Shown piece after piece: positions 5,705 to 26,589 of a stretch of 31,714 bases of DNA. The position numbers and the translations under genes are program-made. Source of the DNA: an uncultured Mediterranea sp. (GTDB lineage Bacteria > Bacteroidota > Bacteroidia > Bacteroidales > Bacteroidaceae); contig CAMGAL010000001.1 of the NCBI GenBank assembly GCA_946007445.1, positions 1 to 31,714 on the forward strand, written 5' to 3'. Within the stretch, counting starts at the first letter, position 1, and each line of letters starts with the position of its first letter. The notes under the pieces were generated by a model. The model was not told where the DNA came from. It ran no database searches and worked only from the letters and a program-made list of their open reading frames with translations.

Positions 5705-5731
5705 TTTTTCTACCTACCTCAGCGAACGATT

Positions 5732-6682
5732 ATGTTTTATTACATTCTTATTCTACTCCTCCTCACCGTCGCCGAGCTACTCTACTTCAAGGTGGCCGAC
5801 AAGTGCAACATCATTGACAAACCCAACCAGCGGAGTAGTCATACACGGATTACCTTGCGGGGTGGGGGAATCATCTTCTACTTTGGAGCGTTGCTCTATT
5901 TCATAGCGAGTGGAGGGGAGTATCCGTGGATGATGGCGGCGCTGACGCTGGTGTCGTTCATCAGCTTTTGGGACGATGTGCGGTCGGTGCCTCAGGGCAT
6001 CAGGCTGCTGTTTCACTTCTCGGCCATGGGGCTGATGTTTGTCCAGTGGGGCTTGTTCTCGCTGTCGTGGATATGGGTCGTGGTGGCCTTGATAGTCTGT
6101 ACGGGCATCATCAATGCCTACAACTTCATGGACGGCATCAATGGCATCACGGGTGGCTATTCGTTGGTCATCTTGACTCTCTTAGCGTATGTCAATCGCA
6201 TGAGGGTGCCGTTTGTGGAGGAGAGCTTCATTGGTACGTTGCTTTGTGCCGTGATTGTGTTCTGCTTCTTCAACTTCCGGAAGCGGGCCAAGTGCTTTGC
6301 CGGCGATGTGGGTTCGGTGAGCATTGCCTTCGTGCTGCTGTTTCTGTTGGGCAAGCTGGTGGTGGTGACGCAAGACCTCAGCTGGCTGGTGCTGCTGGCT
6401 GTGTATGGAGTGGATAGTGTGCTGACCATCGTACACCGGCTGATGCTGCACGAGAACATCGGCCTGCCCCATCGGAAGCATCTCTATCAGCTGATGGCCA
6501 ATGAACTGAAGATTCCGCATGTGGTGGTCTCCTCTGTCTATATGGGAGTGCAGGCCGTTGTGGCTGTGGGCTATCTGGCAATTCCCGTCAATGGCTATCT
6601 CTATCTGGCCACGGTGGTGGCCTTGCTGAGCGGTGCCTATGTGGGCTTCATGAAGAAGTATTACCACCTGCACCAAGGCTAA
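5732..6682 (+). CDS. Undecaprenyl-phosphate N-acetylaminosugar-1-phosphate transferase, WecA/WbpL (MraY) family
   Basis: A 316-residue polytopic membrane enzyme that starts surface polysaccharide synthesis by moving an N-acetylaminosugar-1-phosphate from its UDP carrier to undecaprenyl phosphate. All family landmarks are visible: DKPNQRSSHTR at residues 29-39 followed by RGGGI, the Asp pair WDDV at 80-83, NAYNFMDGING at 128-138 with Asp134, GDVGS at 191-195, and the basic cytoplasmic loop PHRKH at 246-250. About ten to eleven membrane segments are predicted. It closes the polysaccharide operon; its TAA at 6680-6682 sits only four bases from the 3' end of a convergent gene. Together with the preceding epimerase it forms the conserved end of the locus. 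The amino sugar used (probably QuiNAc, FucNAc or GlcNAc) is not certain. Confidence 0.88.
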   Translation: MFYYILILLLLTVAELLYFKVADKCNIIDKPNQRSSHTRITLRGGGIIFYFGALLYFIASGGEYPWMMAALTLVSFISFWDDVRSVPQGIRLLFHFSAMGLMFVQWGLFSLSWIWVVVALIVCTGIINAYNFMDGINGITGGYSLVILTLLAYVNRMRVPFVEESFIGTLLCAVIVFCFFNFRKRAKCFAGDVGSVSIAFVLLFLLGKLVVVTQDLSWLVLLAVYGVDSVLTIVHRLMLHENIGLPHRKHLYQLMANELKIPHVVVSSVYMGVQAVVAVGYLAIPVNGYLYLATVVALLSGAYVGFMKKYYHLHQG

Positions 6683-15463: not shown

Positions 15464-15495
15464 TTTGCTTTATATTGTTTTTTGGTGTAATTTTG
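15464..15495 (+). promoter_or_regulatory. Bacteroidetes-type promoter for the DUF3078 gene
   Basis: TTTG (15464-15467), 20 bases, TAATTTTG (15488-15495) match the -33/-7 pair of the Bacteroidetes primary sigma factor. Transcription would begin near 15500, about 20 bases before the ATG at 15521. Confidence 0.65.
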
Positions 15496-22797: not shown

Positions 22798-23838
22798 ATG
22801 TCCATGAAAGAAAGAATCTTAGTTACAGGAGGTACCGGCTACATTGGTTCACACACTGTAGTGGAACTTCAGAACGCAGGCTATGACGTGGTCATAGTCG
22901 ATAATTTGTCAAACAGCAATGCCAGCGTGGTTGACCAGATAGAGAAGGTGACCGGCATTCGTCCCGCTTTTGAAAAACTTGACTGTCTGGATTATGCAGG
23001 CATGGATGCCATGTTCGCCAAGTATGCAGGCATCAAGGCTGTCATCCATTTCGCTGCCAGCAAGGCCGTAGGTGAGTCGGTTCAGAAGCCGCTTCTTTAC
23101 TATCGCAACAACCTCGTTTCGCTCATCAATCTCTTGGAGCTGATGCCCAAGCATGGAGTGCAGGGCATTGTGTTCTCCTCTTCATGCACTGTTTATGGCC
23201 AGCCCGACGAGCTGCCCGTCACTGAAGCAGCTCCCATCAAGAAGGCTGAGTCGCCTTACGGCAACACGAAGCAGATCAACGAAGAGATTATCCGCGATAC
23301 CGTGACTTCGGGTTCACCCATTCAGGCCATCCTGCTGCGTTATTTCAACCCCATCGGTGCACATCCTACCGCTTTGATTGGCGAGTTGCCCAATGGAGTT
23401 CCCCAAAACTTGATTCCTTATCTGACCCAGACCGCCATCGGCATCCGTGAGAAGCTCAGCGTGTTTGGCGATGATTACAATACCCCCGACGGCTCTTGCA
23501 TCCGCGACTACATCAATGTGGTCGATTTGGCCAAGGCTCATGTGGTGGCTATCCGCCGCATCCTGGAGAAGAAGCAGGCAGAGCAGGTTGAGGTGTTCAA
23601 CATCGGTACGGGCCGCGGTCTCTCCGTGCTCGAACTGATTCATCTCTTCGAAGAGTCAACCGGCGTGAAGTTCAACTACCAGATTGTGGGTCGTCGTGCC
23701 GGTGACATCGAGCAGGTGTGGGCCAACCCCGAACGTGCCAACAAGGTGCTGGGCTGGAAGGCCGAAACCTCTATCGAAGACACGCTGCGTTCTGCCTGGA
23801 AGTGGCAGTTGAAGCTGCGTGAAGATGGTATTCAATAA
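22798..23838 (+). CDS. galE: UDP-glucose 4-epimerase
   Basis: A 346-residue cytoplasmic enzyme that interconverts UDP-glucose and UDP-galactose, used in galactose breakdown (Leloir pathway) and for surface glycans. RILVTGGTGYIGSH near residues 5-18 is the NAD-binding loop. The catalytic set is in SSSCTVYG (Ser) and SPYGNTKQ (Tyr-x3-Lys). LRYFNPIGAH and DGSCIRDYINVVDL are diagnostic of GalE as against other extended SDR enzymes. There are two candidate starts six bases apart (22798 and 22804); MKERILVTGG from 22804 would be the more usual N-terminus. The gene has its own -7 element and follows the rnf terminator. Confidence 0.94.
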   Translation: MSMKERILVTGGTGYIGSHTVVELQNAGYDVVIVDNLSNSNASVVDQIEKVTGIRPAFEKLDCLDYAGMDAMFAKYAGIKAVIHFAASKAVGESVQKPLLYYRNNLVSLINLLELMPKHGVQGIVFSSSCTVYGQPDELPVTEAAPIKKAESPYGNTKQINEEIIRDTVTSGSPIQAILLRYFNPIGAHPTALIGELPNGVPQNLIPYLTQTAIGIREKLSVFGDDYNTPDGSCIRDYINVVDLAKAHVVAIRRILEKKQAEQVEVFNIGTGRGLSVLELIHLFEESTGVKFNYQIVGRRAGDIEQVWANPERANKVLGWKAETSIEDTLRSAWKWQLKLREDGIQ

Positions 23839-24010: not shown

Positions 24011-24062
24011 AATTCTAATAAGAGGGTCAGTCAGAAAAGTCGGATAGATGACTTAAGGACAT

Positions 24063-24087
24063 AAAAAAAGGAGTACCGCTGTACTCC
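24063..24087 (-). terminator. Intrinsic terminator of a minus-strand small RNA
   Basis: Read on the minus strand, GGAGTAC and GTACTCC form a perfect 7-bp stem with loop AGCG, followed directly by seven T (24069-24063). ald has its own terminator about 230 bases earlier in the reading direction, so this one should serve a different transcript. Confidence 0.8.
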
Positions 24088-24126
24088 AACCTTTGTTAAC
24101 CTTAAATCTAATACTATGAAAAACAC
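24063..24126 (-). ncRNA. Predicted small RNA of about 64 nt, promoter-to-terminator unit
   Basis: A compact minus-strand unit with a near-ideal promoter 5 bases upstream and an intrinsic terminator at its 3' end. The body between them is AT-rich and unstructured (it reads TTTTTCATAGTATTAG, then ATTTAAGGTTAACAAAGGTTGG) before the terminator stem. No plausible protein is encoded: an ATG at 24128-24126 would give only a four-codon peptide and may lie outside the transcript. The layout resembles the published 'Bacteroidales-1' RNA motif, which is also defined by a Bacteroidetes promoter at one end and a terminator at the other, but I cannot confirm membership. Function unknown. Confidence 0.62.
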
Positions 24127-24130
24127 ATTG

Positions 24131-24161
24131 CAAAGGTACGAACTTTGGGGAAACCTGCAAA
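24131..24161 (-). promoter_or_regulatory. Promoter of the predicted minus-strand small RNA
   Basis: On the minus strand TTTG (24161-24158), exactly 19 bases, TACCTTTG (24138-24131): a complete match to the Bacteroidetes primary promoter, and the best in the window. GGGAAA (24148-24153) and TTTCCC (24162-24167) form an inverted repeat around the -33 box and could be an operator. Confidence 0.78.
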
Positions 24162-24257
24162 TTTCCCAAGGAAAAAAGTATGTTTAATAACATTGTTTTC
24201 CCCATTGAAAGGGTCGTTAACTAAATCGGCAGACTATTTATACCTTCAACGGCTTAC

Positions 24258-24313
24258 GAAGACGTCTTCATCGGCCCACGAAGATACCTTCATGGGCCGA
24301 TGAAGGTATCTTC
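24258..24313. repeat. Tandem palindromic repeat, 22-base period
   Basis: Unit 1 starts at 24258 and unit 2 at 24280, each 22 bases long; unit 3 starts at 24302 and is cut after 12 bases by the poly-A of the ald terminator. Each begins GAAG-N4-CTTC, itself a short palindrome, followed in units 1 and 2 by a GGCC-containing linker. Part of a further unit (TACCTTCAACGGC) is visible just before. Two long alternative hairpins can form: GAAGATACCTTCAT (24280-24293) with ATGAAGGTATCTTC (24300-24313), and TTCATCGGCCCA (24267-24278) with TGGGCCGATGAA (24293-24304). They share bases and cannot coexist. Confidence 0.75.
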
Positions 24314-24345
24314 AAAAAAAGAGGATGTGTCGATGACACATCCTC
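24314..24345 (-). terminator. Intrinsic terminator of ald
   Basis: On the minus strand GAGGATGTGTC and GACACATCCTC (24345-24321) form a perfect 11-bp stem with a three-base loop, followed by seven T (24320-24314). It lies 40 bases after the ald stop codon. Confidence 0.9.
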
Positions 24346-24385: not shown

Positions 24386-25492
24386 TCACAGCTCTAACGG
24401 TGTGTACTCCAGACCGAAGACATCGGCCACAGCCTTGAAGGTCACTTTACCGTCTACCATGTTGACACCCTTGGCCAGGGCAGCATCGGCGCGGCAAGCC
24501 TCCTTCCAGCCTTTGTCAGCCAAAGCCAAAGCATAGGGCAGGGTAGCGTTGGTCAAGGCCATGGTGGAGGTGAATGGTACGGCTCCCGGAATGTTGGCCA
24601 CAGCATAGTGTACAATGCCGTCTACCTCGTAGGTGGGTTCGCTGTGCGTGGTCGGGTGGGAGGTCTCGAAGCAGCCGCCCTGGTCGATGGCTACGTCCAC
24701 CAGCACAGTGCCGGGCTGCATGAGCTTCAGCATGTCGCGTGTGATAAGATGCGGAGTCTTGTCGCCGGGAATCAGTACGGAGCCGATGACCACGTCGATA
24801 GTGGGCAGTTCACGACAGATGTTGTGATACGAAGAGTAGAGCGTCTTGACGTTCTTGGGCAGGATTTCGCTCAGGTAGCGCAGGCGCTGCAGGTTGATGT
24901 CGCATATCATCACCTCGGCTCCCATGCCGGCGGCAATCCAGGCGGCGTTGGTGCCTACGATACCACCGCCCAAAATCAGTACACGGGCAGGACGTACACC
25001 CGGCACGCCACCCATCAGTTTGCCTTTACCGCCCTGAGGCTTCTCGAGGAAGCGGGCACCCTCTTGTACGGACATGCGTCCGGCCACTTCACTCATGGGG
25101 ATGAGCAACGGCAACGAGCGGTCGGCCTTCTCGACAGTTTCGTAGGCAATGCAGACGGCGCCGCTGGCTTGCATGGCATCAGTCAGCTCGCGGTCGGCAG
25201 CAAAGTGGAAGTAGGTGAAGAGCACCTGTCCGGGTCTTACGAGGGGATATTCGGGTGCTATCGGTTCTTTGACCTTCACAATCATTTCGGCGGCAGCATA
25301 CACGGCTTCGATGCTGGGAAGCAACTCGGCTCCTGCAGCTTTGTACTCCTCATCGGAGAATCCGCTGCCCAAGCCGGCTGTCTGCTGAACGTACACTCTA
25401 TGGCCTCTTTTAACCATTTCGGCTACACCGGCAGGGGTCATTCCCACGCGGTTTTCATTGTTTTTGATTTCTTTAGGTACTCCGATAATCAT
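24386..25492 (-). CDS. ald: Alanine dehydrogenase
   Basis: A 368-residue cytoplasmic enzyme that interconverts L-alanine and pyruvate plus ammonia with NAD(H), linking amino-acid and carbon metabolism. The start MIIGVPKEIKNNENRVGMTP is the standard N-terminus. Active-site residues Lys75 (VKVKEP) and His96 (FTYFHFAAD) are at the positions known for bacterial enzymes. The NAD-binding loop LILGGGIVGTNAA lies near 169-181, and DVAIDQGG near 269-276. Length is typical (about 370). The gene stands alone, with a good terminator at its 3' end. On its upstream side it diverges from the UDP-glucuronate decarboxylase gene, with 155 bases between the two start codons; a weak -7-like TACCTTAG is on the minus strand at 25533-25526. 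Confidence 0.96.
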   Translation of the reverse strand: MIIGVPKEIKNNENRVGMTPAGVAEMVKRGHRVYVQQTAGLGSGFSDEEYKAAGAELLPSIEAVYAAAEMIVKVKEPIAPEYPLVRPGQVLFTYFHFAADRELTDAMQASGAVCIAYETVEKADRSLPLLIPMSEVAGRMSVQEGARFLEKPQGGKGKLMGGVPGVRPARVLILGGGIVGTNAAWIAAGMGAEVMICDINLQRLRYLSEILPKNVKTLYSSYHNICRELPTIDVVIGSVLIPGDKTPHLITRDMLKLMQPGTVLVDVAIDQGGCFETSHPTTHSEPTYEVDGIVHYAVANIPGAVPFTSTMALTNATLPYALALADKGWKEACRADAALAKGVNMVDGKVTFKAVADVFGLEYTPLEL

Positions 25493-25577
25493 AATTTTTC
25501 GTATTTAATGGGGTTTATCGACTCCCTAAGGTAGAAAAAAATATGGAAATGGCCTTGCAAGTTTTAGTTAAATAACC

Positions 25578-25585
25578 TACATTTG
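25578..25585 (+). promoter_or_regulatory. -7 element for the UDP-glucuronate decarboxylase operon
   Basis: TACATTTG fits TAnnTTTG. A CTTG lies 20 bases upstream at 25554-25557 as a fair -33 element. The leader to the ATG at 25648 would be about 58 bases, longer than for most promoters in this window, and contains the direct repeat CCTTAAGTCCTAAG/CCCTAAG. Confidence 0.55.
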
Positions 25586-25647
25586 TACACAAAAAACTAG
25601 AGGTTTGCCTTAAGTCCTAAGAAAAAGCCCTAAGCAAAGTAGGAAGA

Positions 25648-26589
25648 ATGAAGAAAATATTAGTTACAGGAGGTGCCGGTTTTATCGGCTCGCACTTATG
25701 TACACGGCTGGTCAACGATGGCCATTACGTCATCTGTCTGGACAATCTGTTCACAGGCAGAACGGAGAATATAGCCCATCTGCAGGCGCTGCCAAACTTT
25801 GAGTTTGTGGAGCATGATGTAGAGATTCCCTATTATAGAAAGGAGATAGATGAAATCTATAACTTGGCCTGCCCGGCTTCGCCCGTCCACTATCAGTACG
25901 ATGCCGTGAAGACCATCAAGACCTCTGTGATGGGTGCCATCAACATGCTGGGGCTGGCCAAGGCCAACGGGGCCAAGATTCTGCAAGCATCCACGAGTGA
26001 GGTCTATGGCGACCCGACCATCCATCCACAGGTGGAGAGCTATTGGGGCAACGTCAATCCCATAGGCATCCGCTCCTGCTACGACGAGGGCAAGCGCTGC
26101 GCCGAGACCCTCTTCATGGACTATCACCGACAGAACCATGTGCGCATCAAGATTATCCGCATCTTCAATACCTACGGACCACGGATGCAGTCGAACGACG
26201 GACGGGTTATCTCCAACTTTGTGGTTCAGGCTCTGAAGAATCAGGATATTACGATTTATGGTACTGGAAACCAGACCCGTAGCTTCCAATATATCGATGA
26301 CCTCATCGAGGCTATCGTGCGGACAATGGCTACGGAAGACCAATTCATTGGCCCTATCAACCTGGGCAACCCGAATGAGTTCACCATCTTGGAGCTGGCG
26401 CAGAAGGTCATTGAGCTGACCGGCTCCCAATCGAAGCTCGTCTTCAAGCCGTTGCCTCACGATGATCCGAAGCAACGCCAACCTGACATCACGCTGGCCA
26501 AGGAAACGCTGAATTGGGAACCGCGCATACAGCTGGAAGAGGGACTGAAGCAGATGATAGAATTTTTCAAAGATTTCCGTGTGAAGTAA
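25648..26589 (+). CDS. uxs: UDP-glucuronate decarboxylase (UDP-xylose synthase)
   Basis: A 313-residue extended SDR enzyme that turns UDP-glucuronate into UDP-xylose with bound NAD. Diagnostic blocks are [15 protein letters not shown] at 2-16, [12 protein letters not shown] at 72-83, TSEVYGDP at 116-123, Tyr145-x3-Lys149 in YDEGKR, and [10 protein letters not shown] followed by DGRVISNF. The CPASPVHYQ and FNTYGPRM blocks separate UXS from GalE and RmlB. It lacks the N-terminal membrane anchor of eukaryotic forms, as expected. UDP-xylose could feed surface glycans or lipopolysaccharide. The next gene starts 40 bases downstream and may be cotranscribed. Confidence 0.93.

Follow-up and report, generated by a model that had tools for sequence, protein, structure and literature searches.

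The closest described relatives of the gene analysed here are the FopS RNAs of Bacteroides thetaiotaomicron (FopS-01 to -14, Rfam RF04319). FopS-10 is reported to pair with the start region of the susC gene BT_3983 and to block its translation, repression having been reported both in vitro and in vivo, and the RbpB protein relieves this block (PMC11697453). According to the same report, B. thetaiotaomicron contains about 3-fold less total FopS on high-mannose N-glycan than on glucose, bile salts elicit a FopS response, and a 35-nt FopS consensus was used by the discoverers of the family for target prediction; they speak of an unknown transcriptional regulator (PMC11697453). GibS (RF04182) resembles FopS in its R1 seed at the 5' end and as a ligand of RbpB, but is longer, has a second seed (R2) and uses a PM2 promoter. 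Cur (BT4338) is a Crp-family regulator with the reported consensus wwwTATGTTnTAnAACATAwww (PMC3878776, PMC6989115). MasB (BTnc201) is a Cur-activated Bacteroides sRNA, for which Cur ChIP and deletion evidence has been reported (PMC10994844); like FopS it is a Bacteroides sRNA, and Cur is the shared regulator proposed here, but it belongs to another Rfam family and has another target, and the Cur link of FopS is predicted from sequence. Cur sites are reported in the vicinity of the B. thetaiotaomicron sRNAs BTnc140, BTnc195 and BTnc364, the alanine dehydrogenase gene of this species is among the reported Cur ChIP examples, and Cur is reported to act both as an activator and as a repressor. Spot 42 and CyaR are CRP-linked sRNAs of enterobacteria, and they offer an analogy, with no sequence relation claimed, in which a Crp-family regulator stands above an sRNA that trims secondary carbon uptake.

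The DNA analysed (the window, 31,714 nucleotides in full) was compared with the Rfam covariance models, as the initial annotation had proposed for this locus. A minus-strand segment matched BTncRNA_FopS over the full model, with a score well over the gathering cut-off of 56 bits and an E-value of 4.4e-10 (Table 1), and its first 35 nt were identical to the published FopS consensus at 35/35 positions. By this sequence match the segment is a copy of the known FopS family and not of Bacteroides-1. The earlier suggestion of a repeated family was thus borne out, while its candidate, the Bacteroides-1 motif (RF01694), reached 19.4 bits against a cut-off of 43, on the other strand and at another place. 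The window gene shares with the B. thetaiotaomicron FopS RNAs the seed, the length, the hairpin, the sigmaABfr promoter, the occurrence in multiple copies and the predicted pairing with susC starts. That the RNA is instead GibS or another sRNA with an R1 seed is hardly tenable: weak matches from the same start were obtained for GibS (48 bits) and BTnc231 (45.6 bits), but both fell far under their cut-offs (115 and 80.4, respectively), which FopS passes, and the promoter carries TAnnTTTG, whereas GibS uses PM2.

Table 1. Positions of the fopS gene, its signals and its neighbours in the window.
Feature	Position	Strand	Evidence
fopS sRNA gene, class A	24060..24126	-	RF04319 full model 1-71, 78.2 bits
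5' seed region R1' GTGTTTTTCATAGTATTAGATTTAAGGTTAACAAA	24092..24126	-	35-nt FopS consensus; predicted susC-start pairing
Terminator hairpin, 7-bp stem GGAGTAC/GTACTCC, 4-nt loop	24070..24087	-	fold
T7 run of intrinsic terminator	24063..24069	-	sequence
-7 box TACCTTTG, sigmaABfr TAnnTTTG	24131..24138	-	TAnnTTTG here in 100/102 class A copies
-33 box TTTG	24158..24161	-	TTTG near -33 in 91/102 class A copies
Cur-like palindrome AATGTTATTAAACATA	24179..24194	-	centre -60.5, 12/14 consensus positions
ald, alanine dehydrogenase	24386..25492	-	Pfam AlaDh_PNT_C/N; own terminator 24314-24345
galE-like NAD-dependent epimerase, convergent	22798..23838	+	Pfam Epimerase / GDP_Man_Dehyd

The gene has the canonical sigmaABfr promoter of the FopS family, TTTG-N19-TACCTTTG, with a spacer of exactly 19 bases and a start near 24126 on the minus strand. 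The strict pattern TTTG-N19..21-TANNTTTG was found twice in the window (24131-24161 minus and 15464-15495 plus, 0.17 expected). This promoter, which had been described as the best of the window, has the boxes and spacing given for it and is, by this pattern, one of two. The perfect hairpin folds as had been described, and the T-run follows it. Among FopS copies the place of the hairpin is constant and the sequence of its arms varies from copy to copy. The RNA measures 67 nt by the Rfam match and 64 nt up to the end of the T-run, which, together with the intrinsic terminator, fits the length of about 65-70 nt in the family. The fold of the 67-nt RNA had an energy of -11.5 kcal/mol (z -1.6) with a weakly paired 5' part; this part of the transcript body, which was earlier proposed to be unstructured and free for pairing with mRNA, is the FopS seed.

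Two explanations would deny the RNA a gene of its own. In the first, it represents the 3'-terminal part of the ald transcript, produced by read-through or processing without its own promoter, and fopS does follow ald on the same strand at a distance of about 260 nt. However, ald has its own terminator (read by eye as an 11-bp stem at 24321-24345 and a T7 run at 24314-24320), which is the stronger of the two, as had been noted before. Moreover, the FopS promoter boxes are conserved in copies elsewhere, and no FopS neighbour of ald or galE was detected in relatives (80 ald loci, bar one 3-mismatch string, and 29 loci from the galE-ald search); this origin is therefore very improbable. In the second, promoter-like and terminator-like sequences coincide by chance. 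Short motifs alone can be chance, and the z-score of the whole-RNA fold is modest at the value given above, but the Rfam E-value and the presence of copies in 60/60 genus genomes make this explanation practically negligible. The original proposal of a self-contained sRNA gene on the minus strand agrees with the boxes, which make its promoter one of the sigmaABfr type, with the hairpin and T-run of its terminator and with the Rfam match, and the conservation of promoter and stem in relatives, which had been set as a check, was seen for both boxes in class A copies (Table 1).

The genome from which the window derives (2.43 Mb, 73% complete) contained four FopS copies that passed the cut-off and a further two with weaker scores. 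FopS matches over the cut-off were present in all 60 genus genomes searched, this genome included, and in the order-wide search 43 of the 198 genomes sampled had a FopS match, 35 of them over the cut-off. Among 20,395 E. coli records, none matched the fopS DNA. In the DNA search, the similarity between FopS copies extended beyond the promoter, out to about 24199. The surroundings of the window gene are not conserved in the same way. The 80 ald loci of other genomes contained no galE and no FopS core except for one string with 3 mismatches (L091), and no FopS core was present in 29 loci of relatives from the galE-ald DNA search (30 loci minus the window's own). The galE-ald position of the window fopS is not common to relatives, and its site, unseen in the 109 relatives' loci checked, sets this copy apart from the known FopS genes; a dependence of fopS on its neighbours galE or ald was rejected on the basis of the same loci. 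In the same genome, a perfect Cur-type palindrome followed by TACCTTTG at FopS spacing runs off a contig end (C13:68-83, L294), and it is probably a fifth, truncated fopS copy, judging by this arrangement.

The initial annotation had overlooked a palindrome upstream of the promoter (Table 1). In an alignment of 136 FopS copies a palindrome, ATGTTATAWAACAT, was revealed that agrees with the Cur consensus. Sites were scored as matches at 14 fixed consensus positions with a threshold of 11/14, and the window fopS promoter carries an operator resembling TATGTTnTAnAACATA at 12/14, in line with the sequence expected for the Cur regulon. The B. thetaiotaomicron fusA2 site, which was shown to bind Cur, also scores 12/14. 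Within 2 mismatches, the Cur pattern occurred twice in the window (0.06 expected) and at 17 places in the genome, against 3 for the reversed pattern; four of the 17 places belonged to the four FopS genes over the cut-off. The second window palindrome within 2 mismatches, at 5731-5746, lies at the start of an open reading frame (5732-6682) and is possibly due to chance. Upstream of ald (25493-25792), the best Cur-like string scored 10/14.

The genus sample comprised 135 loci of 477 matches, mostly the best-scoring ones, with four picked from the galE-ald DNA search. These loci gave 136 cores, of which 134 had 330 nt of upstream sequence after removal of identical upstreams. A site of at least 11/14 was present within 100 nt upstream in 77/134 of these sampled copies, compared with 1/134 and 2/134 in two stretches farther upstream and 79/2680 in shuffled sequences; FopS copies are paralogues, and these counts are not independent. 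One copy of the window's own genome (L003) stood outside the 134 owing to its short upstream sequence and scored 14/14 separately. The site centres were concentrated at -60.5 (49 copies) and at -27.5/-28.5 (23 copies). At least one copy reaching 11/14 was found in 40 of the 50 sampled genus genomes and none in the other 10/50. Since the genus sample favours high scorers, two complete genomes (G021 and G044) were taken whole; with all copies counted, the site was present in 13/25 copies over the cut-off and 0/4 below it, in genomes that were chosen by us, are apparently close relatives and have copies overlapping the 134. Outside the genus, where the loci were the best-scoring ones of the order-wide search, a site was found in 17/27 loci (18/30 copies; control stretches 1/29), near -28 to -30 in 16 copies and at -61.5 in two.

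Within the genus, the two site positions corresponded to two seed types. In class A, with the seed CATAGTA as in the window, the palindrome lies near -60: 53/102 copies reached 11/14 anywhere, 49 of them at -60.5/-61.5, and 49/102 remained below 11/14. In class B, with the seed CATGGTA, 24/28 copies reached 11/14, 23 of them near -28 in the place of the -33 box; TTTG at -33 was present in 91/102 class A copies versus 1/28 class B copies. Four copies belong to neither class and all score below 11/14. Outside the genus, seed type and site position were uncoupled (L346, L348 and L359). At one further site in the window's own genome (contig C18:6675-6690; L298, minus strand), a Cur-like site lies 8 bases before a TATCTTTG box, in the class B layout, ahead of a non-FopS reading frame. 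The recurrence of a Cur-consensus palindrome at either of two set distances ahead of many fopS genes appears to be a new observation. Among the publications searched, none joining FopS and Cur was found, with supplementary tables and most subscription papers outside the scope; the terms 'Cur' and 'BT4338' have 0 occurrences in the main text of the FopS paper (PMC11697453), and the portions consulted of PMC10994844, PMC10294740, PMC12596196, PMC11501099, PMC12119571 and PMC13352367 contained no FopS-Cur link.

The columns of the class A palindrome carry more information than the flanking columns, and the first half carries more than the second; in many class A copies the first half-site is kept and the second is worn, so that the conservation at this place may have a cause other than a Cur dimer. 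The palindrome could accordingly be a site for another regulator, for instance a bile-salt-responsive one, or an upstream promoter element in which the first half alone matters. The better conservation of the first half-site columns, a sublineage that retains only CATGTTATAA, and the bile-linked regulator left open in the FopS paper (PMC11697453) all agree with this. On the other hand, many class B copies and copies from outside the genus agree with 13-14 of the 14 positions in the full Cur consensus, and the fusA2 site with the same score as that of the window is reported to bind Cur, so that we regard a regulator other than Cur, or a bare promoter element, as unlikely but worth keeping in view. 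The PM2 element was rejected as the identity of the palindrome, as PM2 belongs to the -10/-30 elements and canonical promoters are reported for FopS genes.

The sign of a regulation by Cur may be read from the position of the site. The gene fusA2 is the best-proven Cur-activated gene of B. thetaiotaomicron. Its exact 22-mer site was found in 0/158 genus genomes, and a second EF-G-like gene in four genus genomes was taken to be fusA2. In these genes a string resembling the Cur site scores 10 to 12 of 14, and 33 to 46 bases separate it from a downstream TAATTTG box identified by eye; they have no standard TAnnTTTG at this place. The gap between palindrome and box is 40 bases in class A and 7-8 bases in class B, where the site covers the core promoter. 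As the class A site lies on the same side as the fusA2-like sites and the class B site lies over the core promoter, activation is predicted for class A and repression for class B. A Crp/Fnr protein that is, by its domains, a candidate BT4338 ortholog (L307, cNMP_binding and HTH_Crp_2) is encoded in the window's genome, with a Cur-like string of 11/14 near its start. The lower FopS level on N-glycan speaks against a simple activation by Cur and could result from repression of class B or from another regulator; the bile-salt response need not be explained by Cur. We advance tentatively, at somewhat less than even odds, a direct control of the fopS family by Cur through these two architectures, with class A activated and class B repressed.

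Seed pairing was computed against the susC-like genes of the window's genome, where 51 SusC-type hits were obtained. Thirty of these were available as loci, 22 of them starting at profile position 5 or earlier, and 20 usable start regions remained after L323 and L326 had been dropped. Compared with shuffled seeds, pairing in silico reached p<0.05 in 12/20 susC-like starts and 4/43 other genes, and p<0.01 in 7/20 and 2/43, respectively. The mean pairing energy was -17.1 kcal/mol for susC-like starts and -12.5 kcal/mol for other genes (Mann-Whitney p 9e-6), and a first set selected by motif pointed in the same direction (9 susC genes, -18.8 kcal/mol; 19 control genes, -13.3 kcal/mol; p 0.0015). 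The pairing spans the ATG in three loci (L316, L319 and L332). Pairing with susC start regions, a property of the FopS family, is thus predicted in silico for the window RNA. A profile search for RRM_1 (RbpB-type) proteins gave 0 hits in the window's genome, and as this genome is 73% complete this absence may simply reflect gaps in the assembly.

Taken as a whole, the locus is best explained as a fopS gene that encodes a susC-pairing RNA and carries a Cur-type operator, from which we infer control by Cur; we assign this reading a probability of roughly 85%. From its sequence and from relatives with mapped ends, RNA polymerase with sigmaABfr would start at ~24126 and yield an RNA of 64-67 nt that ends at the hairpin. 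The 5' part would pair with susC-like translation starts, with CAT opposite ATG, and exclude ribosomes. Fewer outer-membrane glycan importers would result, as for FopS-10 in B. thetaiotaomicron and as predicted in the species of the window. Cur, a Crp-like regulator acting under carbon limitation, may directly control many fopS genes, with class A, including the window copy, probably activated from the site near -60 and class B probably repressed from the site near -28. FopS sRNAs help to decide which polysaccharide importers gut Bacteroides make, and a putative Cur-type operator in many fopS promoters provides a directly testable candidate regulator for switching them on and off. If true, two global systems would be joined, carbon control by Cur and the RbpB/FopS RNA network, and carbon limitation would swap one set of FopS RNAs for another. 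In Bacteroidota, FopS would then correspond to the Crp-Spot 42 loop, placed between the starvation switch and the glycan importers, and this layer would be spread through much of the order.

Further features were observed around the gene. The bases 3' of the terminator (24044-24059, and copies in L192-L291) are similar across many class A copies, and ATGYCCNTAN with at most 1 mismatch follows the terminator in 48/102 class A and 2/28 class B copies. Upon read-through of the terminator, pairing of 24044-24059 with the seed would be possible in the window, with a fold of -22.0 kcal/mol in place of -11.5 kcal/mol. An inverted repeat of CGAAGATACCTTCATGGGCC-like units was seen by eye at 24257-24313, in the stretch that separates the fopS promoter from the ald terminator.

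FopS-like DNA was also present in 19 'plasmid' records (H5-H23), all from Bacteroides, Parabacteroides, Phocaeicola or Prevotella, and some of these may be chromosome pieces mislabelled as plasmids. FopS-like seeds occurred in phage contigs of IMG/VR (L120-L161), where 33/42 pattern matches were FopS-like by a simple test and 4/15 contigs tested passed the Rfam FopS cut-off; examples are L122:6002-6077, L143:4778-4853, L138:1999-2062 and L129:799-872. Several of these seeds have very different surroundings, other terminators and Cur scores of at most 10/14, as if phages had captured the FopS seed more than once. An origin of the phage copies as tRNA trailers is not claimed, as a tRNA was detected by ARAGORN in 4/17 loci and none within about 1.9 kb of the FopS match. 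In the induced Bacteroides phage BX-TP2 (L396), an intergenic position near the genome end (936-1014) carries a FopS-like match of 86% over 79 nt that is not annotated.
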